Source of the DNA: Clostridia bacterium
Lineage (GTDB): Bacteria; Bacillota; Clostridia; Oscillospirales; UBA644
Assembly: GCA_017621705.1 (NCBI GenBank)
Contig: JAGASR010000018.1
Span: 1 to 64,000, forward strand
Length of the DNA stretch: 64,000 nt
Direction of reading: 5' to 3'
In this document: piece by piece, positions 4,835 through 46,044 of the stretch
Layout of the letters: every line of letters begins with the position of its first letter
Numbering within the stretch: position 1 is the stretch's first letter
Program-made: the position numbers and the translations under genes
Notes under the pieces: generated by a model
What the model saw: only the letters and a program-made list of their open reading frames with translations
What the model was told of the DNA's origin: nothing
The model's database searches: none

Positions 4835-6633
4835 GTCATATTATTTGCATCATGAAAGATGCAATGAACGCAGTTAAGAATCGTAAGAAAATACTCGGAA
4901 CAGTATGTTTATTATGGTTATTAACTTTATCATATTACGTTGTTCGCATGATGACTCCACTGTTGCAGTCTGCTCTTCTTGACGGTGCTGTCGGTGTTTT
5001 AAATAATACTAATAGTAATCTTCTTTTGATAATTGGTTTTATTGGATTATTTATTTCAGAGGGAATCCTCGCGTTGTACAGTTCTAAATGGGGTATTCTT
5101 TTTGAAAAAGCAAGTAATGAAATACATATTGGAATTCAGTCAAAAATATTTGATAAACTCTGTAAAGTACCTTACAGTGTATTTAATTCTCCACAAATAT
5201 ATGAAAAAATTGAACTTGTATCGGAAAAGTATTCGAAATATTGTTCAGGATTTCTGGCTGGACGTACATTAAGCAGCCTAATAGGAACATTCATTTCGTT
5301 TGTTTTTACAACGATCGTTCTTATTAATGTTGATCCTTTGATTGCTTTTGTTGTTGTATGCGGTAATTTCTTTGGAATATTCAAAACATGGTTAGAAGCA
5401 AAACTTAACTACTATTCAACTGTGGAAAAAATGAAAGAACGTCGCTACGCAGATACATATAAATCTGCTTTGTTTGATCGAAATATGATTAAGGAAATCA
5501 AGCTTTTAGGGTTGACAGATTATATTGAAAAAAAATGGTATGAATATACTGTTCGTGTTAACCGTAAAACTATGAATTATAACGTTCTTTTCCTTCTTTT
5601 GGATTTAACGACATATTTAATAGCAAATGCGTTTACTGTAATATCTCTTATTTTAACAGCTAAAATGATATTGAACGGAGAGACAAGCATAGGTTCTTTT
5701 ATCTTAGTATATTCATCGTCAGGAGCTTTGATAGATACTTCCGGAAGTTTGTTTGGTGCATTCCGTGAACTTAGTTCATCGTCATACTATCACTCTTTAT
5801 ATCGTGATCTCATGTCTATGCCTAATGTTGAACCCAATAAGTCTGAAGCGAATTGTGAGAAAAAATCAGATGTCTCTTTTGACATTCTTTTTGATCATGT
5901 TGATTTTTCGTATGAAGGAAGTGAAAACAAAATAATTGATGATTTGTGCCTGAATATAAAACAAGGGGAAAAAATCGCAATTGTGGGCGAAAACGGATGT
6001 GGAAAAACAACACTTGTTGCTTTGTTGAACCGTCTTTATGTACCTAATAAAGGTGAGATCTTTATATCAGGGAAAAGCCAAGCGGACAATTTATTCGGTC
6101 TTCGTCGTTGTGTTTCCACTGTTTTTCAAGATTTTGGGAAATACGAAACCAGTTTCCGCGAAAATATAATAATGAGTGATAAGTCACAGCATTATTCTGA
6201 TGAGGAAGTTATGATGTGTGTAAGAAAAACCGGATTGGAAAACAAAATACATGAATTTGAGTCCGGTCTTGATACGCCAATAGGACGATTTGTTCCGGGA
6301 GGGATCAATCTTTCAGGAGGCGAATGGCAGAAACTTGCTATTACTCGCGGTCTTATTCCTAAAGATACGAAGGTATTGATTATGGATGAACCGAATTCAG
6401 CACTTGATCCTATCTCTGAAGCTACTGTGTATAAACAAGTATTCGACGCTGTTAAAGAAGATCAAACATTGATTCTTATCACTCACCGATTAGGTGCCAT
6501 AAGACATGTCGATCGAATTATTGTTATGGATCATGGCCGAATTATTGAAGATGGTTCACATGATAATCTCATGGAACAAAAAGGGAAATACTTTGAGATG
6601 TATAATGCTCAAGCCAAGTGGTATGAGGTGTGA
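4831..6633 (+). CDS. ABC exporter half-transporter (permease plus ATPase), subunit 2
   Basis: 600 aa, same layout as the preceding gene. It has an N-terminal transmembrane domain (segments near 20-50, 65-85, 150-190 and 250-290) and a C-terminal ATPase with Walker A GENGCGKTT near 387, signature LSGGEWQKLAITRG near 493, Walker B LIMDEP near 515, D-loop SALDP and H-loop LITHR. The start ATG overlaps the upstream stop and has AAGGAGG before it. It is the last gene of the XRE/sigma/ABC group and is followed by a strong terminator. Confidence 0.85.
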   Translation: MSHIICIMKDAMNAVKNRKKILGTVCLLWLLTLSYYVVRMMTPLLQSALLDGAVGVLNNTNSNLLLIIGFIGLFISEGILALYSSKWGILFEKASNEIHIGIQSKIFDKLCKVPYSVFNSPQIYEKIELVSEKYSKYCSGFLAGRTLSSLIGTFISFVFTTIVLINVDPLIAFVVVCGNFFGIFKTWLEAKLNYYSTVEKMKERRYADTYKSALFDRNMIKEIKLLGLTDYIEKKWYEYTVRVNRKTMNYNVLFLLLDLTTYLIANAFTVISLILTAKMILNGETSIGSFILVYSSSGALIDTSGSLFGAFRELSSSSYYHSLYRDLMSMPNVEPNKSEANCEKKSDVSFDILFDHVDFSYEGSENKIIDDLCLNIKQGEKIAIVGENGCGKTTLVALLNRLYVPNKGEIFISGKSQADNLFGLRRCVSTVFQDFGKYETSFRENIIMSDKSQHYSDEEVMMCVRKTGLENKIHEFESGLDTPIGRFVPGGINLSGGEWQKLAITRGLIPKDTKVLIMDEPNSALDPISEATVYKQVFDAVKEDQTLILITHRLGAIRHVDRIIVMDHGRIIEDGSHDNLMEQKGKYFEMYNAQAKWYEV

Positions 6634-11576: not shown

Positions 11577-11653
11577 GCGCTTTTAGCTCAGCTGGATAGA
11601 GCAACTGCCTTCTAAGCCGTAGGTCGGGGGTTCGAGTCCCTCAAAGCGCGCCA
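11577..11653 (+). tRNA. tRNA-Arg: tRNA-Arg (anticodon UCU), prophage integration site
   Basis: 77-nt cloverleaf with encoded CCA. The acceptor stem is GCGCTTT/AAAGCGC with discriminator G, followed by a GCTC/GAGC D-stem, anticodon loop CTTCTAA (UCU, Arg), and a GGGGG T-stem with a G-U pair around TTCGAGT. The anticodon stem ACTGC/GCCGT has one U-C mismatch at positions 29/41. The 3' part from the anticodon loop onward is duplicated at 45995-46044, so the prophage restored the gene when it integrated. Confidence 0.95.
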
Positions 11654-11658
11654 AAGAT
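11609..11658 (+). repeat. attL core (50-bp direct repeat)
   Basis: Identical over 50 nt to 45995-46044. It begins in the tRNA anticodon loop and ends 5 nt past CCA, in the standard position for a tyrosine-integrase phage using a tRNA 3' half. Confidence 0.95.
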
Positions 11659-11896: not shown

Positions 11897-14800
11897 TTAT
11901 TCTTTTGATTTAGCTTTATTTTTACGTTTCTTCATTTCAGAATTGATCTTCGTCAGTTCGAAACCGTCTCGGAGCATTATTCTCTTGAGTGATTTATATT
12001 CTGACTGATCGTTTTTGAAAGCATCATAAAGTAGATCGTAAAATCTTGATTTACTGCCGAGACCGTATCGTGCCTTTAAGACAGCATACTGCGCATCGTA
12101 GCCGACTGCTTTTGCGGTATTCGAGACCATCCCATAAAAAATATTTTTTATGTTTCCTGCAGGTATCTTGCAGAGTTCGGCGACACAGATTCCCATATTC
12201 TCGACAGATCTGAAAAGAGATTCTGCAGATCCTTCGCCGTCAACAAGTTTATCTGCATGTGAACTAACTTTTTGTATTGAATTAAGAAGTTTTTCCACGC
12301 TTCCAAAAAAAACATTTGACGTCCCGTAATAGAGATCGTGTGTCGTCAATGAATACATCGCATCAAAAAGTTCTTGGCCGAGTACTACGGATCCGAAAGT
12401 GTCTGACAAAATGTCTATGCCAAGTCCTTTTAATACCGAACCTACAGTCATTTCACCGCCTTCTTCGTAATTTTCAAGTTTATCAAGAAGGATTTTTGCA
12501 ATAAAGCCCATAACGGCGGTTGTCATATTTTTTACGACTGTTGCAGATATTGTTAACGCTATTTTCTCGTTTGATTCATCAAGTTTCGTTCTTGCTTCTT
12601 TGAGAACCTCTTGGTTTAACGGATTCTTTTCTGCATTTCGAAATTCCTTTGTTCTTACTGAATGCTCGGAAATAGCTTCGCATACTTCACCATAGGTTTT
12701 GAACGCATCTGTTTTAAAACTTGTGAACAGCTGATCGAGAGGATTGTTGCTTCTCAATATTCCGGGCAGCTGTATTGGTTCTCGAGAGGCTTGTGTCCTT
12801 TCCATGATTTCTTCAAAGATTTTTGCAACTACTCTGTTATACTCGTTAGAACCTTTTTCCCACTTTCCATCTTGATTTAGGTTATCGTCTACATAGTGTT
12901 CAGCGACACTCCATTGACGTCGAGCAACTCCTGCATCGATATATTGTAGCCAATCCATCAACCACGGAAATCTTTTTTCCCAACCCTGTTTTCGGTAGAA
13001 ATTACTGAACTCATACGGCTTATTTCTTGACCAGAGAAGAGGGGAGAACTCGTTTATTGTTTTAATATCTGCAACCGATTTCCCGACAAGATTATGGGTT
13101 GCTGTTTTAAGGACCGGCTTCCAACCAACGACAGCTGCCGCCGCAGGAAATGCGCTGATCTGTTTTGCGGCAGAAGAAAGGTTCGCACTCAAAACAGCCG
13201 TTGCAGCATTTCCTTTCAATTTTCTTCCTATTTCTTGAAAGAGACCGTCCGGGGATTTTCGATTCCCCTCGATGTCTGCAATAAAATCCATAATGTATCT
13301 TTTCGCGCTTTCTCCCCATTCTGCGCCTATGGTTTTTTCTACAGACTCTCGTCTACCTTCAAAGACAGTCCCATATACGCTTTTAAAATCTCGTAAGGGA
13401 ATCGCAAGACCAGCAAAGAATGATACTCCTTTAAGGTGATTATCTACGACAGAGAAAACATCCTGCAAAAGTATCGCACCGTTTGCCCCTGAAACCCTAT
13501 CTTTCAGATGTGACCAACTTTCAACTGTCTGAATTGCATCGGTCATAAAACTTGTAGTCGGATCTTTGCTTGCTAAGCTTTTTACTGTTGATATGGGGAA
13601 ATAATATCCTTCCCCGGCTTTCATAAATCCGTAGAGCACAAGAGCTACTTCGTTTATGAGGTTCGGCGCAATAACATTCATATAGTCTTCAACCAGTTCC
13701 GCAATCCTTTTCTCAAACGGTGTTGCGCTTTCCCACAAAACGTCGATTTCTCGTCTTGAGAGGTTTACCACTTCCCCTTGGTCTTCGGCTGCTTTTGTTT
13801 TTCCTTCTTTCAGAAGCTTGATGTCCGGAATCAGAATACCTCCGCCTTTGAGAAATGGGGTGTCCTGAATATGGTACATAGCATGGTCGTCTTTGCTGAG
13901 ACAATGAAGAGCTATTAATTGGGCAGGAGTTATTTTTAATGCCTTGGTTTTTCCGTCTTTTTTATCGACAATGTTTTTGGCAAAAATTTCTCTTGCCTTC
14001 GGTCCGGTTATCTCTTTCATTTTTTCTGTCTCTTTGAAGACTTCTTCAAATTTCATAGTGACATCTTTCGTAATGCTTAGGGTTTTTTTATACCCTTCGG
14101 AAATATTTTCAAACAGTTCGACAAAAACACTTCCCTCTTTATATCCGCTCATCATTCGGGCAACATGCATAGGGGACAGCATCGAAAGTTTGAATTTAGA
14201 AAACTTAGATACGGGGTTGACTTTTTGTATTTTGGCACCATAGCTTACTTCTTCTGCAAGTTTTTCTGCGTAATCATATATTTTATGTTTTTTTCTTGCC
14301 CCCAGTAGATATTCTCCGTTTCTGACCTGGTTTTCAAGGGCAAGACCTGCATTAATCAGGCTTTGAAGTTTATCTGTAGATATATTTGATATTTCTATCT
14401 TTTTGCCGTCTTTTATTTCCCCAAGACTTGATATGTCCCTTTTATCAAACTCTATAGATCTGAGATCGGATATATCACGTTTCATTTTCTCACTTAATGC
14501 AAGTGTTGTTCCGCTTTCTTTTTGGTATTCCTCTATCTTCTTTGCCAGTTGACTGATAGATGTTTTTGTTTTGCTTGACATCGAAACATCTCCGGTATAC
14601 AGTTTACCGATAGTTTCTTCTATCAGCTTGATGTTTTCCGGTGTGGTTTTCATACGCTGTAAGCGACGTGAAACACGCAAAAGCTGCTCCTGAAGCTCTC
14701 TTGTTTTTTTATTCGCTTTTTCGTCAGCATGTTTCTCTTTGACATATTCGAGTTCACGACGGGCTTCGGCTTTCTCTTCAATGAGTTTCTGTCTGTATTC

Positions 14801-17800
14801 TTCACGAATAACGTCGGAATCTCTTGCTCCTGACCATTCGTCAAGCACCGCAGAGAGAAGATCTTTCTTTATGGACTCGATAATTTCGGGTGTTGCTTCT
14901 TCAAACCTCGGTGCATAGGTCTTCTTTAAAGACTTTGCCACCTCTGCGATCTGTTTGAGTTGCTCGATCTCGTCCTCAATTCCGTTCGGGAACTTATCGG
15001 GATATCTTTCTACAAGGTCGCTGTAGATATCTCCGATATTGGGAGACTCTTTGAGCTCCTTGTTTGGATTTTCGGGATCGAACGTCATGTCATTCTTTGA
15101 AACAATACTTATTTTTGGCATAACGCCGAGAAGGCTTTGCCTGAACTTGGTGAAGTCACGTTTTCTTTCTCCGAAATTGTATGAGCTCATAAGAGACACC
15201 CTGAATTGAGTATCTTTCAACTCTTGTTTCAGCTTTGTTTCTTCCGAAGAAGGAGACGACACTTCCGATCTTGCAGCTTCTGCGATCTCACTCGCAACAA
15301 TATTCAATGCTTTGTTGTATTTTTCATTTGAAGAAAATCCTTTCTCGAGATCTTCGATGCTCATGTTGTTTAAACTTTCAGCGACGATCTCGGAAATATC
15401 CGAAGCAGAGATCTCACCGTTGGGAACATCAAAATCTTTCAAAAATTTTCTGACCGCAGGCCGAACATCTTCAGCGATAAAAACGGTTCTGTTGTCTATT
15501 CTTTTACGTATAAGAGATTCAAGAACCTCAGAAGATGCTTCCTCACCCCCCTCCGAACTGAGTTCAGAAGTGCTGTCGTCGTCCTTGAATGAATATTTCC
15601 CGTCGTTTTGCGTATTATGGGTATTGACAGAAGTATCGGTTTGTGGTATACTGTCTTCAAAAGAGGAAACAGCTTCTTGCGATGTTAAAACAGGGGACCT
15701 TCGGGTTGGCCAGTTGGCTAAGGGCTGTTTCCTCATTTTTTTGTTTTCTTTTAAGGAAACGGTGTAAACGTACTTCCCTGTCTCGTTTTCCTTTACGTTT
15801 ATTACAACATCAAAATAATCACCGTCCGACTGTATGGTTTTAACGAAATAATCATAATTAAAGACGCCCTCGTGTCCTTTCTTGGTTTCCGTTCCCTCTC
15901 TTGGAGGAGCAGAACCCTCATATCTTGAATTTTCAAACAAAGTGAATATATCGCCGCCCGCGCCTATGTTTGTTCTCGCATTACCCCCGGATCTATCCGA
16001 ATTTCTGTCGCCGTGCACAAATTTATATGCATCTTTAGGATCAATGCTCGCATAATATGCTGTATTGTCGATAAAAAACTTTGCTGTCTTGCCTTTGTAT
16101 TCATTTTTTATTTTGTTTACAAGGATCTTTTTCCTATCGTTATATCGTAACTTTTTGACATCTTCGCTCGTCTCATAAATCTCAATACCGTTTTTATCTA
16201 CGCCCTTAAAAACAAACATTCCGTCGCTGTCCGTTGAAATTATATTCTCTTTTCCCTTTGCTGTCTTTGCAGAAGCGGCGAAAAGATCGGAATAACGTTT
16301 TTCGAGGGCTTCGAGGTTTGATATTTCCGTTTCCGTATTATTTGCGGAGGCGGATTTTTTTGTGAAAACGGATTTGATATTTTCAATAATATTGCGGAGA
16401 AAGTCAAGGAACTTCTGCGCGGCGGTTCTGTTATTTTTAACGAGGGATTCGAAGGCAGTATCATCACCGTCAAAAAGTCTCTTTGAAAACTCTGCTGCAA
16501 CTTCCTCCGCAGCTTCGATATCGGAGAGTATCTTTCCTTTGTTTGCGTATTCTGCTTTCTTCCGTGCTATAAGATCTGTTTCCGGGATCTGTTTTTCCTC
16601 GGAAAGGAAAGAGAGAGCTTCTTTTTGATAGCTTCCGTAAAGATCCGGAGCAGTTTCCGCGAAACGGTGGATCAATTCATGCCGCGCGATAGAATAAACT
16701 TTACTCGGATCTGAAATGTTGATGTGGATAACACCGTCTTTGTAGTAGCCGTCAGCTTTCCCGTCTGCGATATTGTCCGTGAGAATTATTTTTGTACCGA
16801 GTATCTTTGCAGTATCAGACAGCGTCTTACGCTGTTGCTTTGTGAGTGTATCTGAAAATTCGTTCATAACAAGTCCCGACTTCTTTCCTAAATAAGTAAC
16901 GGAACCCGTGCGCAGTTTTTCTCTTGCCGCCGCCTGAGCAATAGCGTATTCTTTCTGACCGAGGGAAAAAGCATCTTTTATGCCTGTTATATCTTTGAAG
17001 ACCTGCAGCTCGGTCGCTCTCGAGATCGGGAGCCCGACCTTACCCATAGTATAGAAACGTTCAAATTCTGCGGCAATACTACTCTGAGGCACGTCGACGT
17101 TATCTTCATAAAGATCTGAAAGGAGCTTCTTTGCATCATCGGAGAATTTCGAGGAATCAACATTGTTCGGTACCGTCACAGTCCAACCATGAGAGGGAGA
17201 GACTGAAACGGACTGATTTTCCGTTCTCGGCATTTGCGCAGTGTAAATCTCCGAAGGATCAACGTTCTTTTGGATTCGCTCAAGAAAATCGTCGGTAAAC
17301 ATCGTCTGCTGACCTTTTTCCGTAAGAACGGGGGACGGCCTATTCGAATTTGTTCCTTTTGAAAATTGATTCACAGCGAAAGAGCCACTGCCGAGCAGTG
17401 CGGAATAACCGAGCGAATAAAGGAATCCTGTGAGGGCAGAAGAAAGAAGCTCCTTACCGGTTGCGGTCTCTGCATCGGGATCGTATGTCTGCTGTTTTGC
17501 GTAAGGCTCGATAAAGCTCACCACGGCTTCTTCGAGACCTTCACCGAGTTGTGGAATAACATTAAAAGCAGTTCCGAGAATGATCTTTCCGGCTTTGCTG
17601 TCAACGAAGTTCGGGAGGATCTTTCGGGCGACTTTTGTAAGAGTTTTTTGATTAATAAAACCGCCGAGAACTTTCTCAAACGGTGAGAACATAACTTCGC
17701 TTAATGCTTCTGCAGTACCCATGACCGTTGAATAAGCGGAGGCATCGTCGAGCGTTGCACCTTCGGAGAGAGCCGAACGCATAGAACCGCCTTTTGCGGA

Positions 17801-18655
17801 TAAAAGAGTGGCGGCGCTCTGCAGAAGCTTTGATGCGGCGCCGGTTCCGCCCGTCGCCATAGTAACAAGAGCGGTCGGCGCCATTCGTCCTGCGTTATAT
17901 CCGAAATCATAAAGCGCGGATCCTGCCTTGCTTTCGATCGGACTGTATTTCTGAAGATCTTCGGGTGATCTGAAGACTGCGCTTTCCTGCAGGGCTTTAA
18001 GACCTTCGGAAAATCTGTTATCGTCTGTCAGACCGAGATTTCGGGTAAGATCCGAAACAGATATTGCTGTATCTGCCGCAGCCTGCGCTATACCGACGAC
18101 AGGGCTCGCCGCAACCTGAAGAGCATCGTTAAGGACACCGCTTTTCATAATCTCCGGTCTTGCTTCCATATTTTTACGCCGTAGTTCTTCGAGGGATCTT
18201 TTTGTGGTCGTAAGCTTTCCGTATTCCTTTTGATGCTCAGTTTTTTGCATACCGAGATCAGGCAGAGAGCCGGGGGCAGTAAAACCGTATTCTTTAATAT
18301 TATCGAGCGCTGTCGGAAGGTTCTTTATACTCTCCGCTTTTCTCTGTTCTTTGTAGATCTTCGCTGCTTTATTCGGATCAGTCGATACAACTGCGTTTTT
18401 CCCGAGTGTCGTTTCAAGTTTCGGCATACCGAGATCAGGCAGAGAACCGGGGGCAGTAAAGCCCTCGGTTTTTATGCGACTGACGGCTTCAGCGGTCGTC
18501 AGACTTTCTTTTCTCTTTTTGCTTGCTTCTTCAAAAGCCGTAAACGGGTCTTTCTGTTTGTTTTGGGTACCGAGAATATCGGAATTATTTTTTACGAATT
18601 CAGCATATGTAAGTTTTTTCTTTTGGTTTTTCTTAACGGTATCGATATAACTCAT
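11897..18655 (-). CDS. Giant polyvalent protein with metallopeptidase and LPD-like domains
   Basis: 2252 aa, last gene of the late operon. N-terminal 65-77 and 124-136 carry an exact repeat (GFTAPGSLPDLGM). Residues 180-430 are alanine- and glycine-rich with hydrophobic helices. RHELIHRF near 655 is an HExxH zinc-peptidase motif. Residues about 835-975 resemble the LPD3-type domain of phage polyvalent proteins. Residues 1050-1480 are charged and coiled-coil rich. The C-terminal 750 residues are mixed helical with hydrophobic patches around 2000-2060. No transglycosylase motif was recognised. Such proteins are packaged in podovirus-like virions and enter the host with the DNA; ejection, wall or protein processing and host takeover are inferences. 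Confidence 0.75.
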   Translation of the reverse strand: MSYIDTVKKNQKKKLTYAEFVKNNSDILGTQNKQKDPFTAFEEASKKRKESLTTAEAVSRIKTEGFTAPGSLPDLGMPKLETTLGKNAVVSTDPNKAAKIYKEQRKAESIKNLPTALDNIKEYGFTAPGSLPDLGMQKTEHQKEYGKLTTTKRSLEELRRKNMEARPEIMKSGVLNDALQVAASPVVGIAQAAADTAISVSDLTRNLGLTDDNRFSEGLKALQESAVFRSPEDLQKYSPIESKAGSALYDFGYNAGRMAPTALVTMATGGTGAASKLLQSAATLLSAKGGSMRSALSEGATLDDASAYSTVMGTAEALSEVMFSPFEKVLGGFINQKTLTKVARKILPNFVDSKAGKIILGTAFNVIPQLGEGLEEAVVSFIEPYAKQQTYDPDAETATGKELLSSALTGFLYSLGYSALLGSGSFAVNQFSKGTNSNRPSPVLTEKGQQTMFTDDFLERIQKNVDPSEIYTAQMPRTENQSVSVSPSHGWTVTVPNNVDSSKFSDDAKKLLSDLYEDNVDVPQSSIAAEFERFYTMGKVGLPISRATELQVFKDITGIKDAFSLGQKEYAIAQAAAREKLRTGSVTYLGKKSGLVMNEFSDTLTKQQRKTLSDTAKILGTKIILTDNIADGKADGYYKDGVIHINISDPSKVYSIARHELIHRFAETAPDLYGSYQKEALSFLSEEKQIPETDLIARKKAEYANKGKILSDIEAAEEVAAEFSKRLFDGDDTAFESLVKNNRTAAQKFLDFLRNIIENIKSVFTKKSASANNTETEISNLEALEKRYSDLFAASAKTAKGKENIISTDSDGMFVFKGVDKNGIEIYETSEDVKKLRYNDRKKILVNKIKNEYKGKTAKFFIDNTAYYASIDPKDAYKFVHGDRNSDRSGGNARTNIGAGGDIFTLFENSRYEGSAPPREGTETKKGHEGVFNYDYFVKTIQSDGDYFDVVINVKENETGKYVYTVSLKENKKMRKQPLANWPTRRSPVLTSQEAVSSFEDSIPQTDTSVNTHNTQNDGKYSFKDDDSTSELSSEGGEEASSEVLESLIRKRIDNRTVFIAEDVRPAVRKFLKDFDVPNGEISASDISEIVAESLNNMSIEDLEKGFSSNEKYNKALNIVASEIAEAARSEVSSPSSEETKLKQELKDTQFRVSLMSSYNFGERKRDFTKFRQSLLGVMPKISIVSKNDMTFDPENPNKELKESPNIGDIYSDLVERYPDKFPNGIEDEIEQLKQIAEVAKSLKKTYAPRFEEATPEIIESIKKDLLSAVLDEWSGARDSDVIREEYRQKLIEEKAEARRELEYVKEKHADEKANKKTRELQEQLLRVSRRLQRMKTTPENIKLIEETIGKLYTGDVSMSSKTKTSISQLAKKIEEYQKESGTTLALSEKMKRDISDLRSIEFDKRDISSLGEIKDGKKIEISNISTDKLQSLINAGLALENQVRNGEYLLGARKKHKIYDYAEKLAEEVSYGAKIQKVNPVSKFSKFKLSMLSPMHVARMMSGYKEGSVFVELFENISEGYKKTLSITKDVTMKFEEVFKETEKMKEITGPKAREIFAKNIVDKKDGKTKALKITPAQLIALHCLSKDDHAMYHIQDTPFLKGGGILIPDIKLLKEGKTKAAEDQGEVVNLSRREIDVLWESATPFEKRIAELVEDYMNVIAPNLINEVALVLYGFMKAGEGYYFPISTVKSLASKDPTTSFMTDAIQTVESWSHLKDRVSGANGAILLQDVFSVVDNHLKGVSFFAGLAIPLRDFKSVYGTVFEGRRESVEKTIGAEWGESAKRYIMDFIADIEGNRKSPDGLFQEIGRKLKGNAATAVLSANLSSAAKQISAFPAAAAVVGWKPVLKTATHNLVGKSVADIKTINEFSPLLWSRNKPYEFSNFYRKQGWEKRFPWLMDWLQYIDAGVARRQWSVAEHYVDDNLNQDGKWEKGSNEYNRVVAKIFEEIMERTQASREPIQLPGILRSNNPLDQLFTSFKTDAFKTYGEVCEAISEHSVRTKEFRNAEKNPLNQEVLKEARTKLDESNEKIALTISATVVKNMTTAVMGFIAKILLDKLENYEEGGEMTVGSVLKGLGIDILSDTFGSVVLGQELFDAMYSLTTHDLYYGTSNVFFGSVEKLLNSIQKVSSHADKLVDGEGSAESLFRSVENMGICVAELCKIPAGNIKNIFYGMVSNTAKAVGYDAQYAVLKARYGLGSKSRFYDLLYDAFKNDQSEYKSLKRIMLRDGFELTKINSEMKKRKNKAKSKE

Positions 18656-20816: not shown

Positions 20817-22565
20817 TTATATACCGACTTCGCGAACGATAGCGCGAAGATTTACTCTCCCGTACCCTGATATTCTGATCCTGAAGCTGTCGCATCTGTC
20901 GGGTCTGATCGGTATATCCGCAACAGGAGATCTGTCCGAATATTTTTCCGTCGCAGCAACGATCCACGGGCCGCCGTCGCAAGAATATTCTGTTTTGATC
21001 CAGCTTCGTTCTGTGAGCTCTGCGCGTAGCCAAAGACGGGAATATGTTTTCTTATCTTTCGTTGTTTCCGTTATCGGGCAAAGCTCCGCCGACCATTCAA
21101 ACGGCTGATCGGATATTGAAGAGGGGAGATAAACGCTTTTATATCCTCTGTATATTGCGGAAAGCCTGAAACGGTAGTTTGTATCCCCCTCGGGAATGGA
21201 TATGGTGTTATCTGCAGCATCTACGTAAAAAAGGGTATTATCGTAATATGCAAAAGCAAGAGCTTTCGTATTGTCTTCTTTGAGCCATGTGCCGTAAAGC
21301 GTGTTATATACGTAAAGTCCCCATTTATCGGATGAATCTTTCATCGAGATATAATATCTCTCTCCGTCAGATCCTGCGACAGCTTCAGCATAAAGGCCCG
21401 TTATGTTGTCCGAGACTTTTACCGGGAATGAACCGTCGTATGCATAAACACCGTCAGGTGCTTTATAGTAAAGTACAGACCGTACGTTGCAGATGCTTTT
21501 CTCGCTTCCGAGCTGAACCCCGGGGGCCGTTATGGTTGTAAGAGAAAAAGAGGAGGGGGTTGATCCGTAAATTCTGTGAATACAGTTTTCTTTAAAGAGT
21601 AGAAGCTGATCTCCGAAAGCGGCCATGCCCGTGAAGTCTCCGGCAGATCCGATCGCAACCGCCCATGAATCTGTAGCTGTTCCGTCATATCTGAAATAGT
21701 TCGAAGGATCACCGAGAGCCGAAGCATATATCGTATCACCTGCAAGTCCCCAGATTCGGTTATTCCATTCGACCGCAAAATCAAAATCGGGTATAGTCTT
21801 TGAAAGGGTGAAAGATGTCTCGTATGCGTGTTCGAATATATTATAGTCGAACGGAATTACATGAAATTCGACATTTTCAGTCCATCCGGTTGTGATCTCA
21901 CCTCGGATTGTTGCGTATTTGTTGTTTACGGTTTCCGAGCAGCCTTCGATCTTGACTGTATCACCCTGAGAAAAAGGAAAGTCACTTGAAAAATATTCCT
22001 GTGCGCCGATACCGTAGATCTTTTCCGTTCCGTTTTGTTCTTTTGTGAACTCACCGAATACCCATGTTCCGCCGACCGATGTCGCGGAGAAAGTTTCCTT
22101 GAGATTTTTTGATACGGTACCTTCTTCGCCTACGGAAAGCATTTGTCCCAAGGGGAAGACAATCACGCTGTCTGTGATTGCGACAACTGCTTTCGGCTTT
22201 TGTGGCGAAAAGCAAAGACCGCCTCCCTTGATCTGACCGTCTTCGATATATTCCCATATCGTCATATATCTACTGTCTTCAATTTCGTTTGGGAAATATA
22301 TCGTGCTTATAAGACCATTACGAGCGCAAATATTGATCGTCTGTGCACCTGCATACGAAGGTATCAGAGATTCGCCTGAACCCATTACGGTGTGACACGG
22401 GGTTCTTGTTGCACGTTGATTTATAATCGGGAAGTTTTCACCTGATAAATTGAATGTTTCCCTGAATTCGCCCTCTCTGCAGTTTTCTGTCATATTAAGA
22501 CCGCCGAAGTTTACAGTATACTGTTTCTGTTTTGAAACAGATGTTGCCATAGGATATCTTACCAT
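20817..22565 (-). CDS. Tail stabilisation or tubular-type structural protein
   Basis: 582 aa. Predicted mostly beta with frequent aromatic and glycine turns (YTVNFGGLNM, WNNRIWGLAGDTIYAS, LLLFKENCIHRIYG). It resembles the large beta-propeller-like tail proteins that follow the head-tail connector in podovirus-type prophages of Clostridia (P22 gp10-like position). It follows the 117-aa connector and precedes the small coiled-coil and peptidase genes. The first 8 residues before MATSV may be dispensable, but the ribosome site supports 22565. Assignment rests on context and general composition. Confidence 0.6.
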   Translation of the reverse strand: MVRYPMATSVSKQKQYTVNFGGLNMTENCREGEFRETFNLSGENFPIINQRATRTPCHTVMGSGESLIPSYAGAQTINICARNGLISTIYFPNEIEDSRYMTIWEYIEDGQIKGGGLCFSPQKPKAVVAITDSVIVFPLGQMLSVGEEGTVSKNLKETFSATSVGGTWVFGEFTKEQNGTEKIYGIGAQEYFSSDFPFSQGDTVKIEGCSETVNNKYATIRGEITTGWTENVEFHVIPFDYNIFEHAYETSFTLSKTIPDFDFAVEWNNRIWGLAGDTIYASALGDPSNYFRYDGTATDSWAVAIGSAGDFTGMAAFGDQLLLFKENCIHRIYGSTPSSFSLTTITAPGVQLGSEKSICNVRSVLYYKAPDGVYAYDGSFPVKVSDNITGLYAEAVAGSDGERYYISMKDSSDKWGLYVYNTLYGTWLKEDNTKALAFAYYDNTLFYVDAADNTISIPEGDTNYRFRLSAIYRGYKSVYLPSSISDQPFEWSAELCPITETTKDKKTYSRLWLRAELTERSWIKTEYSCDGGPWIVAATEKYSDRSPVADIPIRPDRCDSFRIRISGYGRVNLRAIVREVGI

Positions 22566-36287: not shown

Positions 36288-36517
36288 TCTCCTTCGTAAA
36301 ATTTGTTTTTTTCGTTAGCAAGTGTACATTTTTTCCAGTTTTGAGTATAACAATATCGCCGAGTGAAATCACCTCGGCTTTTTATATTCGGAAAAGGGAT
36401 CCGGGCGCACTCACATTCGAGGCACACGGATCTCGATCGCGCTGTCTCTCTGTAGTAGTACGGACAGACGGCGCTTTTTGATTCAAAATAAGCGTATCCG
36501 CTTTTGTTTTTCTTCAC
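36284..36517 (-). CDS. Small cysteine-rich phage protein
   Basis: 77 aa with six cysteines in CPYYY, CLECEC, YCYTQ and KKC positions, consistent with a small zinc-binding protein. It overlaps Rep upstream by 4 nt and the coiled-coil gene downstream by 4 nt. It may serve Rep or late transcription; unknown. Confidence 0.6.
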   Translation of the reverse strand: MKKNKSGYAYFESKSAVCPYYYRETARSRSVCLECECARIPFPNIKSRGDFTRRYCYTQNWKKCTLANEKNKFYEGE

Positions 36518-37260
36518 CTTCTGTCGTTTCGCCTCCGCTTCATCAATACATTTATGTAAATTTGCCCGAAGATGTCCGGCTCGGTTACTTCGTATTCGAC
36601 AACACGATACCCCGGATATATCTTCTCAACGGCTTCACAGTCGAGCTCGTCCGTGAAAATAAGTTCACGAACCGCTCTTTGTGAAAGGTGCCCCGTCCGC
36701 TGATCTGCTTTCGGCTTTTCAAGGTTACGTGATCCCCACCAACTTTTTTTACCGCGCACATCGTCTGATCTTATAAACTGCTTTGTGCCGCCGACATAGT
36801 GGGAGAGGGGAGAAAACATTCTGTCGTCTCTGTCCTGAAGACGATCGGCGTTTGCTGTGCCGAGCTTCCAGAGAGCTTCCAGATCGCTTCGCCCGAATTT
36901 ATCCGTGCCTGTGATCGTTATATGCGCATGGCGGCGGCTCATGCCGTCTCTGCCACCGAGCACAATGATATATTTTAAAGTTTTTTCTTCACCGTGTTTT
37001 TTGTAAAGTCTCTTGACCCTGCGCATGAAATTCTGAATTTCTCTTTTGTGATCGTCGTCACTCTTTGGTAAAAACTCTGAACTGAATGTCAAGTGCAGTT
37101 CCCAGTCGTGGCCTGCTCTGAAATTGAGATGAAGCGTTCGACGAAGTTTCTTCTCGGACGCTTTTCTGTTTAACCGCTCCTGAATCTCTGATGTCGGCTT
37201 CGCTTTACTTTTTCTTGTTTTGCCCGTTTTTTTTACGGTGAAGATATCAATATCAAGCAT
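36514..37260 (-). CDS. HUH-type rolling-circle replication protein
   Basis: 248 aa from the ATG at 37260, which has GGAGGAG close upstream; the frame extends to an ATG at 37332. RRHAHITITG contains the HUH metal-binding motif (His-Ala-His). DLEALWKLGTAN and LSHYVGGTKQF followed by WWGSRNLEKPK match the rolling-circle Rep family common in Clostridia prophages; the Tyr in LSHY is the likely nicking residue. It would nick the phage origin and covalently hold the 5' end. A lysine-rich N-terminus precedes the catalytic part. It is the only replication initiator in the prophage and follows ssb. Confidence 0.75.
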   Translation of the reverse strand: MLDIDIFTVKKTGKTRKSKAKPTSEIQERLNRKASEKKLRRTLHLNFRAGHDWELHLTFSSEFLPKSDDDHKREIQNFMRRVKRLYKKHGEEKTLKYIIVLGGRDGMSRRHAHITITGTDKFGRSDLEALWKLGTANADRLQDRDDRMFSPLSHYVGGTKQFIRSDDVRGKKSWWGSRNLEKPKADQRTGHLSQRAVRELIFTDELDCEAVEKIYPGYRVVEYEVTEPDIFGQIYINVLMKRRRNDRR

Positions 37261-37301
37261 ATCTCCTCCGACGTATCTGTTTTCTCGAATAAGATTGATG
37301 C

Positions 37302-37315
37302 GGATCACCTCCTTT
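37302..37315 (-). promoter_or_regulatory. 14-nt extended Shine-Dalgarno inside the Rep 5' region
   Basis: AAAGGAGGTGATCC on the minus strand is complementary to the standard 16S rRNA 3' tail over 14 nt. No ATG, GTG or TTG follows at normal spacing; ATC at 37297-37299 does. See findings. Confidence 0.7.
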
Positions 37316-37446
37316 GAACCTTTTTTAGTCATTAAGTTATTATTTACTTACAAGCTTTAAAACCCACCTAAATGGGCGTAAAGAAAAGAAAACCTGCGCC
37401 GCTTTTTCTTTTTTGAATCGCTATATTATAATATGAAGATAAGATG

Positions 37447-41768: not shown

Positions 41769-41969
41769 CTAGCTGAAAAATATTTCCTGAACGGTTTTTC
41801 CGAAATATTCCGCGATTTTCATTTTAATTTCGTCTTTGGGGGTTCTTTCGCCTTGTTCGTACATAGATAAGGCAGAAACGCTTATTCCGATATTGGCGGC
41901 AACTTCTCCCTGTGATCTTTCTCCTCTTAATGATTTGAGGAGAATACCGATATTTTTCTTTCTGCTCAT
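41769..41969 (-). CDS. Cro-like XRE repressor
   Basis: 66 aa from the ATG at 41969 (site AAGGAGACATC). The full XRE helix-turn-helix RSQGEVAANIGISVSALSMY and EQGERTP is seen, with YFGKTVQEIFF at the end. First gene of the early operon, facing the S24 repressor, as Cro does. Confidence 0.85.
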   Translation of the reverse strand: MSRKKNIGILLKSLRGERSQGEVAANIGISVSALSMYEQGERTPKDEIKMKIAEYFGKTVQEIFFS

Positions 41970-42001
41970 GATGTCTCCTTTGCGTGATAGCTTTAGGTTA
42001 T

Positions 42002-42047
42002 ACAATTTGTGTTACACAAAAAGTATAACATATGTTATACAAATTGT
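42002..42047. promoter_or_regulatory. Operator cluster with 18-bp perfect palindrome
   Basis: GTATAACATATGTTATAC (42023-42040) is its own reverse complement. It is flanked by ACAATTTGT (42002-42010) and ACAAATTGT (42039-42047), which are inverted copies. It overlaps the leftward promoter and probably binds the repressor and Cro-like protein. Confidence 0.75.
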
Positions 42048-42050
42048 CAA
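42022..42050 (-). promoter_or_regulatory. Leftward early promoter
   Basis: On the minus strand TTGACA (42045-42050), a 17-nt spacer and TATACT (42022-42027). The palindromic operator fills the spacer. Confidence 0.85.
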
Positions 42051-42107
42051 TATGATAAAATATACAAAAAGTATCACTACGAAGTCGCCGTTTTGTGTAA
42101 TTCGCTC

Positions 42108-42137
42108 TTGACTTAAGGTACACAAATCGTGTATAAT
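42108..42137 (+). promoter_or_regulatory. Lysogeny promoter for repressor operon
   Basis: TTGACT (42108-42113), an 18-nt spacer and TATAAT (42132-42137). ACACAAATCGTGTATAATA overlaps the -10 and echoes the operator words, so autoregulation is likely. Confidence 0.8.
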
Positions 42138-42168: not shown

Positions 42169-42843
42169 ATGATTAGGTTAAATGAGAGAATAAAACAACT
42201 TCGTAATGAAGCAGGAATGACACAGCAAGAATTTGCAAATCTTCTTAAAATGTCCAGGAGCGCCGTGATAATGTATGAACGAGGGGAGCGTGAGCCTAAT
42301 CTTGAGACGTTGACATTTATCGCTGATTATTTCGATGTCGATATGGATTATCTTCTCGGAAAAACCGATCATAGAAATAAACTTTCTTGGCTCAAGAATC
42401 TCAATGAATCAGAAGATATATCAATTATCGATGCTATCAAGGGCATTTCTCCTCTGGAAACAAAAAAATACCGTCTCCTCGGAAATGTTGCGTGCGGTGA
42501 ACCGATATTCGCAAACGAGGAAACGGAGGTTTATATTGAAGCAGGTGAAGATCTGAAAGCAGACTTTTGCCTTCGTGCGAAAGGGGACAGTATGATCGGC
42601 GCAAGAATATATGACGGCGATATTGTTTTTATACGGCAGCAGGACACCGTCGAAGACGGGGAGATTGCAGCCGTACTGATTGAAGACGAAGCGACCCTCA
42701 AGAGAGTATATTTTGATAAAGAAGCAGGGATCCTTTCTCTCTTTGCTGAAAATCCCCAGTATAAAACTCTTCGATACTCCGGAGAACAGCTTAACACCAT
42801 AAGGATCCTCGGAAAAGCAGTTGCGTTTCAGAGTAGGTTATGA
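42169..42843 (+). CDS. S24-type phage repressor (CI/LexA-like)
   Basis: 224 aa from the ATG at 42169 (AGAGGTG upstream); a start 18 nt earlier would lack a ribosome site. N-terminal XRE HTH at residues 17-37. The C-terminal S24 autoprotease has cleavage site Ala108-Cys109-Gly110, catalytic Ser141 in KGDSM and Lys178 in ATLKRVY. It should block the leftward promoter and be self-cleaved with host RecA after DNA damage. The cleavage site is Ala-Cys-Gly, not the commoner Ala-Gly; the catalytic pair is intact. Confidence 0.9.
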   Translation: MIRLNERIKQLRNEAGMTQQEFANLLKMSRSAVIMYERGEREPNLETLTFIADYFDVDMDYLLGKTDHRNKLSWLKNLNESEDISIIDAIKGISPLETKKYRLLGNVACGEPIFANEETEVYIEAGEDLKADFCLRAKGDSMIGARIYDGDIVFIRQQDTVEDGEIAAVLIEDEATLKRVYFDKEAGILSLFAENPQYKTLRYSGEQLNTIRILGKAVAFQSRL

Positions 42844-42849
42844 GAACAA

Positions 42850-44667
42850 ATGAAGGATATAATTATTATATCAGTATGTTTTATTTTTCTTTTCTTGCTT
42901 CCTTTTTTTATTATTTTGTTTTCTAAAATCAGCGATAAATTATCTGATTTTAGAGCGAACAGAAAATATAAAAAGAGGATTAGAAAAGAATCAGAGAAGC
43001 TTATTGAAGAAAAAGACAAGCAAATAGCATGGCACATAAAGAAAGAATCCGAGTTTGAACAAAAAAACAAGAATCTTCAAGAGAAAATATTCAAGCTTGA
43101 AAACGTGGAAGATCAAGTTAAAATAGCAAAGGACAAAGAGACGTATTACTCTGCACATAACAAGTATTTATTGGGCGTAAACAAAAAACTTGAAGATGAG
43201 ATCGACAGACTAAGAAATAAAGTAATTCTTTTAGAAAAAGCGAATACGGGAGATATTTCTTCGGATATTAAAACGAAGGACGAAAAGATTGCTGAGCTTA
43301 AGGAAACATTAAGGCTTACTCGGGATGAACTAAAAAAAGTCAGACAGTCGGAAATTTCACTCGCAAATACAAGTAATAAATATTCAGCTACAAATAAATG
43401 GCTGAAAAACGTAAATGAAAACCTTCAAGCCACAATAAAGAGCCTTGAAGCTAAAATTGAAACCTTGGAGTTAGCTAACATAATACAAAGTAATTCAAAC
43501 CGGGAAAACGAGAAAGATGAAATCTTTGAAGAAACTTCTAATTATATTAACGAGATAGAAAAAGAACTACAGTCTGTAAGATCAGATTTAGAAATTACTC
43601 AAAAGGAAAAAGACGAGCTTCAAAGCCAATTAACTAAACTTGAAGAATCGAAGATCGGCGAATACGACGATTTTTGGGACGTCTCTTATACCGCATTACA
43701 TAGAACCATAGATGAATATAAACAAGAGTTTTCGTCGAACAAGACAGCTATTCCGTACATGGCAAAGATAATTGCCGAGATCGAAACGATCGACTTGAAG
43801 AGAACTGCAAAAGCGTTATCTTGGGGAAATAACCAGGAGCGCAGAAAGAAAGTCGCCCATATAAACGAGATCAAGGCAGAAGCGCAGGAGAAGATCGAGA
43901 GCCTAAAATGGGCTGAGTATCAGTTGGCATATCTTCTCGAGTTATACCCGTCTCTTCAAGATGTCATTGACTCGGATTTTGAATCTATTCCGCAGAGTTT
44001 TGAAATTATATCCGAACATGATCCCGTAAGAGACTGGTTATCTCTTGACGAATGGAAAGAGCTTTCCGAAACGGACAGAAGCCAACTTGCGCTCGACAGA
44101 TACATACAGTCTCATCAAAAATCGAAGTGGCAAGTTGGCAGAGACTATGAATTATTCTGTGGTCATTGTTATGAAAAGAAAGGATATACCGTCGAATATT
44201 TCGGAGAGTTTATGGGGCTTGAAGATATGGGCCGCGATCTGATCGTACGAAACGGACAAGACGTGCGTATCGTTCAGTGTAAATATTGGTCTAAAAACAA
44301 GCAGATTCACGAAAAACATGTCATGCAGCTCTTCGGCTCTGTCGTTGAGTACAATTCTGAACATAATGCTTCTGCAAAAGGGATCCTCGTTACTAATACG
44401 ACGCTCTCCGAAAAGGCTCGGAAGTTTGCGGAGATTCTTGGGATAATGTATACCGAAGAATTCGAGATAGGTGATTTTCCTCGAATCAAATGTAATATTG
44501 GCGAACATCAAGCAAAGATATACCACCTCCCCATGGACGCGAATTATGACGTTACAAAGATCGACCGTCCGGGCGAATTCATGGCATACACCGTGGAACA
44601 AGCAGAGGCGGCAGGTTTCCGTCGAGCCTATAAATGGCACGGCGGATGGACGATCAGTATAAACTGA
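42850..44667 (+). CDS. Membrane-anchored coiled-coil protein with Mrr-like nuclease domain
   Basis: 605 aa. A hydrophobic N-terminal helix (residues 4-26) is followed by a basic patch and about 240 residues of coiled coil. A helical middle domain leads to a restriction-endonuclease-like core near 425-530: GRDYELFCGHCYEKKGY, GRDLIV (Asp near 462) and VQCKYW (Gln-Cys-Lys near 475-477), the D...QxK variant used by Mrr-type enzymes. The last 50 residues (HLPMDANYD, TVEQAEAAGFRRAYKW) form a small domain. It is only 6 nt after the repressor and upstream of int, so it is made in the lysogen. A role in excluding other phages is inferred; DNA is the likely target. Confidence 0.75.
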   Translation: MKDIIIISVCFIFLFLLPFFIILFSKISDKLSDFRANRKYKKRIRKESEKLIEEKDKQIAWHIKKESEFEQKNKNLQEKIFKLENVEDQVKIAKDKETYYSAHNKYLLGVNKKLEDEIDRLRNKVILLEKANTGDISSDIKTKDEKIAELKETLRLTRDELKKVRQSEISLANTSNKYSATNKWLKNVNENLQATIKSLEAKIETLELANIIQSNSNRENEKDEIFEETSNYINEIEKELQSVRSDLEITQKEKDELQSQLTKLEESKIGEYDDFWDVSYTALHRTIDEYKQEFSSNKTAIPYMAKIIAEIETIDLKRTAKALSWGNNQERRKKVAHINEIKAEAQEKIESLKWAEYQLAYLLELYPSLQDVIDSDFESIPQSFEIISEHDPVRDWLSLDEWKELSETDRSQLALDRYIQSHQKSKWQVGRDYELFCGHCYEKKGYTVEYFGEFMGLEDMGRDLIVRNGQDVRIVQCKYWSKNKQIHEKHVMQLFGSVVEYNSEHNASAKGILVTNTTLSEKARKFAEILGIMYTEEFEIGDFPRIKCNIGEHQAKIYHLPMDANYDVTKIDRPGEFMAYTVEQAEAAGFRRAYKWHGGWTISIN

Positions 44668-45994: not shown

Positions 45995-46044
45995 CTTCTA
46001 AGCCGTAGGTCGGGGGTTCGAGTCCCTCAAAGCGCGCCAAAGAT
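45995..46044 (+). repeat. attR core (50-bp direct repeat)
   Basis: Identical to attL (11609-11658). It contains the displaced 3' half of tRNA-Arg from the anticodon loop to beyond CCA, with no 5' half, so it is not a functional tRNA. Confidence 0.95.

Follow-up and report, generated by a model that had tools for sequence, protein, structure and literature searches.

A membrane-tethered Mrr-type nuclease in the lysogeny module of a clostridial prophage as a candidate injection-coupled superinfection-exclusion protein

The window, a stretch of 64,000 nucleotides from a Clostridia bacterium (assembly GCA_017621705.1, contig JAGASR010000018.1), contains a prophage in which a gene between repressor and integrase encodes a predicted membrane-tethered nuclease of the Mrr type. 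This protein is probably, if by no means certainly, a superinfection-exclusion nuclease that is encoded by the prophage, expressed in the lysogen, coupled to DNA injection, and directed at other phages. The best reading of the analysis is that it works like SNIPE, a membrane-bound nuclease acting at the injection site, but is no SNIPE. By analogy with SNIPE we infer membrane anchoring, DNA cleavage, coupling to injection, and sparing of the prophage's own DNA, while lysogenic expression is supported, indirectly, by a predicted promoter and the layout of the operon.

The open reading frame coincides exactly with positions 42850–44667 of the forward strand and runs from ATG to TGA over 605 codons (605 amino acids). 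The original prediction had read a transmembrane anchor, a long coiled coil, a helical domain, a D...QxK nuclease, and a small C-terminal domain into this single protein, and each of these parts was recovered by profile searches, hydropathy, or structure prediction. The transmembrane helix (residues ~4–25; 42859–42924) is predicted by hydropathy, with a Kyte-Doolittle mean of up to 3.2 over 19 residues. Since a very basic stretch, KISDKLSDFRANRKYKKRIRK, lies C-terminal of it, an N-out/C-in topology is predicted by the positive-inside rule. The helix is followed by a coiled-coil tether of ~270 residues (26–294; 42925–43731), in which AlphaFold2 models long helices at residues 2–131, 140–213, and 222–294 and whose length varies within the family. 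When the coil was compared with itself it reached a score of 73, shuffled sequences averaging 40 (sd 6.8; maximum of 500 shuffles 67), which is suggestive only of an internal duplication, as coiled coils generally resemble one another. Next comes a conserved helical domain of ~83 residues (297–380; 43738–43989), to which no Pfam, NCBIfam, or PHROGs model could be matched. Structure prediction, proposed earlier as a check, gave high-confidence models of both this domain and the nuclease domain, the last 300 residues being mostly of high confidence with pLDDT above 90 in most blocks.

The nuclease domain (44125–44454) matches Mrr_cat (PF04471) at residues 430–528 with an E-value of 3.8e-12, above the curated cut-off. 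Its catalytic residues, E434 (codon 44149–44151), D463 (44236–44238), Q476 (44275–44277), and K478 (44281–44283), the last two forming the QxK element, are all intact. Matches to solved structures obtained with Foldseek fall on the nuclease core and include AF1548, MspJI, EndoMS/NucS, and archaeal Hjc, and also AspBHI; MspJI, EndoMS/NucS, and Hjc are known PD-(D/E)XK enzymes, and AF1548 is uncharacterised. Taken together, the PF04471 core, the D...QxK motif, and the Foldseek matches place the protein in the Mrr-type PD-(D/E)XK superfamily; the structure matches do not identify a substrate. A sequence search of the PDB yielded no informative relative. The small C-terminal domain corresponds to the 'sunset' model NF051437 (residues 546–593; 44485–44628; E 4e-7, above the cut-off), and no literature on a 'sunset domain' was found.

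The prophage is bounded by exact 50-bp att repeats, the left one (11609–11658) within a tRNA-Arg gene (11577–11653) and the right one at 45995–46044, and encodes a terminase, a portal protein, a major head protein, and an internal virion protein. As originally described, the nuclease gene is placed between repressor and integrase. The stop codon of a CI-type repressor with HTH_3 and Peptidase_S24 domain matches (42169–42843, forward strand) lies 6 nt before the nuclease ATG, and a tyrosine integrase (PF00589; 44688–45815, forward strand), which has its own ribosome-binding site, AGAAAGGAG, follows the nuclease stop codon at a distance of 20 nt. A cro-type HTH regulator, the first lytic gene, is encoded divergently (41769–42005, reverse strand). 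In a consensus scan, the region's two best promoter matches form a divergent pair in the gap between this gene and the repressor: a forward promoter for the repressor, nuclease, and integrase (42108–42137; TTGACT-18-TATAAT, 11 of 12 matches) and a lytic promoter on the reverse strand (42022–42050; TTGACA-17-TATACT, 11 of 12 matches, extended -10). Operator-like repeats, TTATACAANTTGT and ACACAAATCGTGT, overlap both promoters (41994–42133), and no terminator-like site was found on the forward strand from the forward promoter to the att site. The genes for repressor, nuclease, and integrase thus appear to form a single operon that is on in the lysogen, consensus scans being no proof of this; because the nuclease would be translated from the repressor operon, it should be made in the lysogen. 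The repressor operon, the att-bounded prophage with its head and packaging genes, and the promoter scan together mark the gene as cargo of the lysogeny module, a moron. Such a slot favours lysogenic expression and not an anti-phage function as such.

Three reverse-strand genes of the prophage deserve mention in their own right. At its far end, a protein of 2252 amino acids (11897–18655) bears a weak match to the large-polyvalent-protein domain LPD3 (E 0.005) and is possibly injected along with the phage DNA. An internal virion protein (20817–22565) matches phrog_511 with an E-value of 1e-49, and a replication protein (36514–37332) has a domain of the ORF2/G2P type, a rolling-circle initiator (PF23343, E 1e-7), in what is the prophage of a tailed phage. 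Going by the internal virion protein, the prophage may have podovirus-like ejection proteins, so that its own entry machinery may not be the one used by the phages it is proposed to exclude.

Relatives of the nuclease escaped a search of viral and genome contigs with the single protein, but were found when an alignment served as query. This query retrieved 18 full relatives and one weak one from IMG/VR. In genomes of bacteria and archaea it gave 216 confirmed places, and the 80 best of these were retained; removal of near-copies from the combined set left 94 non-redundant loci. Among sequenced phage records, tblastn with the window protein or with the member L012 found no relatives, and with L022 two short partial matches. 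Its members come from many phyla of bacteria and from at least one assembly of an archaeon, and the recurrence of the architecture in 94 non-redundant loci of many phyla is far beyond chance. The 85 aligned members provide the reference for motif and domain counts: the four catalytic residues are invariant in all 85, the helical domain is matched by its own HMM in all 85, Mrr_cat in 78, and NF051437 in 80. By a simple hydropathy rule, an N-terminal membrane helix is present in 79 of the 94 loci, several of the others being truncated or frameshifted. Both the E/D/QxK residues and the membrane helix appear, on this pattern of conservation, to be under selection. Ahead of the helical domain, members of the family have anywhere between 19 and 354 residues. 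In three members (L013, L021, and L030) the helical domain is clearly present twice, with coiled coil between the copies, and in a fourth (L034) the second copy is partial and weaker, so the domain can be regarded as an independent unit. Among 391 genomes of the class, no clear occurrence of it was seen outside the nuclease family, nor any reuse with other nucleases. In the locus L111 (1014–2334, forward strand), a frameshift within the helical domain splits the member gene, which is still flanked by an XRE gene and a serine recombinase; this locus resembles an anchorless member of the family and, on account of the frameshift, was not taken as evidence for a soluble form. PADLOC defence models gave only weak nuclease or coiled-coil matches to the family, and no published description of it was found in a literature search, most subscription papers lying outside its reach.

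The arrangement seen in the window recurs in 26 of the 94 loci, where an XRE-type repressor upstream, the nuclease, and an integrase downstream are encoded on a single strand. The integrase is of the tyrosine type in 18 of these and of the serine type in 8, and its type switches at least seven times on the nuclease tree; the nuclease stays while the integrases differ. None of 28 other Mrr-related proteins from the same class occupied the slot when flanks of ~1.5 kb were inspected, a few of them matching sunset only. In 55 of the 94 loci, neither repressor nor integrase is within reach, a figure that is a counterweight to a putative anti-phage role. Many of the copies lie on chromosomes, in Bacteroidota, Patescibacteria, Planctomycetota, and others. 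Among 148 neighbours of the non-prophage loci, a small number, as a raw count, match defence families at E ≤ 1e-10, and Gabija, AbiE, PD-Lambda-3, type IV restriction, and other families stand beside some of these copies. One set of loci comprises L003 and L004 together with Hymenobacter loci (L076, L079, L083, L085–L087), in which the Hymenobacter copies lie on plasmids or contigs; the two annotated Hymenobacter plasmid copies adjoin heavy-metal and arsenic resistance genes, not defence genes. A tight clade without linkage to repressor or integrase (L054, L059, L062, L064, L068, L069, L074, L080, L084, L089, and L096) spans assemblies of Patescibacteria, Omnitrophota, Desulfotomaculaceae, and Deltaproteobacteria, which suggests a recent spread between distant groups.

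SNIPE (PD-Lambda-1; Saxton et al. 2026), a membrane-bound protein composed of a transmembrane segment, DUF4041, and a GIY-YIG nuclease, cuts the DNA of phages while it is being injected, is associated with the tape measure protein, spares an induced prophage, and does not block plasmid transformation (PMC13190303). It provides an experimental precedent for injection-point cutting by a membrane-anchored nuclease (PMC13190303), and it occupies the same genomic slot as the nuclease described here. SNIPE and the Mrr-type protein have in common a single polypeptide with an N-out membrane helix, a variable helical or coiled region, a helical domain in the middle, and a nuclease at the C-terminus; for the window protein, an N-terminal membrane anchor with a cytoplasmic nuclease is a prediction from hydropathy and flanking charge only. 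The nuclease is of the GIY-YIG type in SNIPE, whereas the family described here is of the PD-(D/E)XK Mrr type, lacks DUF4041, and has the additional sunset domain. Membership in SNIPE was rejected, as the window protein has no Pfam match to DUF4041 (PF13250) or GIY-YIG and aligned to eight Clostridial SNIPE homologues with an hhalign probability of 5%. Hidden homology between the helical domain and DUF4041 was likewise rejected, no meaningful alignment being obtained there at that probability. The simple hydropathy rule also finds an N-terminal membrane helix in 14 of 59 SNIPE homologues compared with 79 of 94 in the nuclease family.

In phages of Gram-positive bacteria, SNIPE is placed between repressor and integrase as the nuclease is. 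Of 59 non-redundant IMG/VR loci with SNIPE homologues, a repressor lies upstream in 45, accompanied in 33 by an integrase, and five of eight Clostridial SNIPE loci adjoin a repressor, precede an integrase, or do both. The annotation of phage EJ-1 reads cI, a DUF4041 gene, one ORF, and int, and that of phage phiS10 reads repressor, one ORF, a 'putative phage membrane protein', and integrase. The repressor of the window's prophage is 56% identical over 225 amino acids to the repressor of the loci L202 and L203, in which a SNIPE gene follows 14 bp downstream, succeeded by a second SNIPE-like gene, another ORF, and a tyrosine integrase; the tandem SNIPE-like genes occupy positions 4908–7759 in L202 and are found likewise in L203. 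Related repressors are therefore followed by the Mrr-type nuclease here and by SNIPE there, so that two unrelated nuclease genes fill one place. Whether the family, with a membrane helix, a coiled-coil tether, and a putative new helical recognition domain joined to an Mrr-type nuclease, evolved independently as a second class of defence nucleases coupled to injection, exchanging with SNIPE at the same lysogeny-module site, is, in our estimate, an even question.

In the proposed mechanism, the nuclease would be translated from the repressor operon and be present in the lysogen, where the N-terminal helix would anchor it in the cytoplasmic membrane and the coiled coil would point into the cytoplasm. 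Tethering would keep it away from the chromosome. Upon injection by another phage, the helical domain, the coiled coil, or both would probably make contact with the injection machinery or with the DNA as it enters, which the Mrr-type domain would cut before circularisation. Because cutting would be tied to entry, the prophage's own induced, replicating genomes would be spared. Elements of this scheme have counterparts in other systems. In Zorya, the Mrr-like nuclease ZorD is recruited by the membrane motor ZorAB and acts at phage injection sites (PMC12904381). Weak matches to ZorD1 ('SWI2/SNF2 helicase, Mrr-like nuclease') were obtained for 6 of 85 members, but ZorD includes a helicase of the SWI2/SNF2 type and depends on ZorAB as a separate motor, whereas the nuclease here has its own anchor and no helicase. 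Ltp of phage TP-J34 is a defence or exclusion gene in the lysogeny region, and Ltp/Sie proteins of phages of Gram-positive bacteria are likewise lysogeny-module, membrane-tethered, prophage-expressed proteins that act on DNA injection (PMC3952083). However, Ltp is a lipoprotein outside the membrane and blocks entry without being a nuclease, whereas the predicted nuclease would cut. A further precedent for defence genes in the lysogeny region is Tha, which staphylococcal phages express together with the cI operon (PMC11087260).

Since the Mrr_cat core and the D...QxK motif are shared with type IV restriction enzymes of the Mrr and MspJI kind, the protein might instead be a membrane-bound, modification-dependent enzyme of this kind, in which the helical or the sunset domain reads modified bases and the membrane merely places it near the site of entry. 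The Foldseek matches to MspJI and AspBHI, weak mREase_IV matches in 10 of 85 members, and the fact that no methyltransferase is seen among the genes adjoining the nuclease agree with this explanation, which we nevertheless regard as rather unlikely. The fold matches cover the nuclease core only, and repair and junction nucleases match equally well. In contrast to Mrr and MspJI enzymes, no N-terminal DNA-reader domain was found, Pfam returning no match to Mrr_N (winged-helix) or an SRA-type domain in the window protein up to an E-value of 1; the protein has a membrane helix and coiled coil, the retention of which a type IV enzyme leaves unexplained.

That many copies are chromosomal or plasmid-borne and lie outside prophages would fit a membrane nuclease directed against DNA that enters by conjugation or natural transformation, guarding its element or host from plasmids and other elements. 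The strong recurrence in phage lysogeny modules argues against such a role, as does the indifference of SNIPE to plasmid transformation (PMC13190303), and it seems quite improbable. A protein of the phage life cycle that processes the phage's own DNA, for example by resolving or trimming it at integration or excision, would account for the adjacent integrase and for the resemblance of the core to the junction and repair nucleases Hjc and EndoMS, but is scarcely to be expected: the nuclease occurs with unrelated tyrosine and serine integrases, is replaced by SNIPE behind a homologous repressor, has no integrase beside it in over half of the loci, and is predicted to be membrane-anchored. The superinfection-exclusion nuclease remains our preferred reading, well supported as to architecture and position, with its function argued from the parallel with SNIPE.

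The large family and the parallel to a known, non-homologous system go beyond the original prediction. With at least 94 non-redundant loci and 216 confirmed matches in one genome scan, the family is large, and it is without a match in the defence library used; the published SNIPE assays are applicable to it (PMC13190303). SNIPE tells self from non-self DNA by location, at the injection site. If the reading of the Mrr-type family as a counterpart is true, discrimination by location would have arisen at least twice, from unrelated nuclease families in the same slot, and the gap between repressor and integrase of temperate phages would be a predictable place to seek such systems. Cutting at the injection site would then not be a one-off invention but a strategy that recurs, with examples in many phyla of bacteria as well as in at least one assembly of an archaeon.
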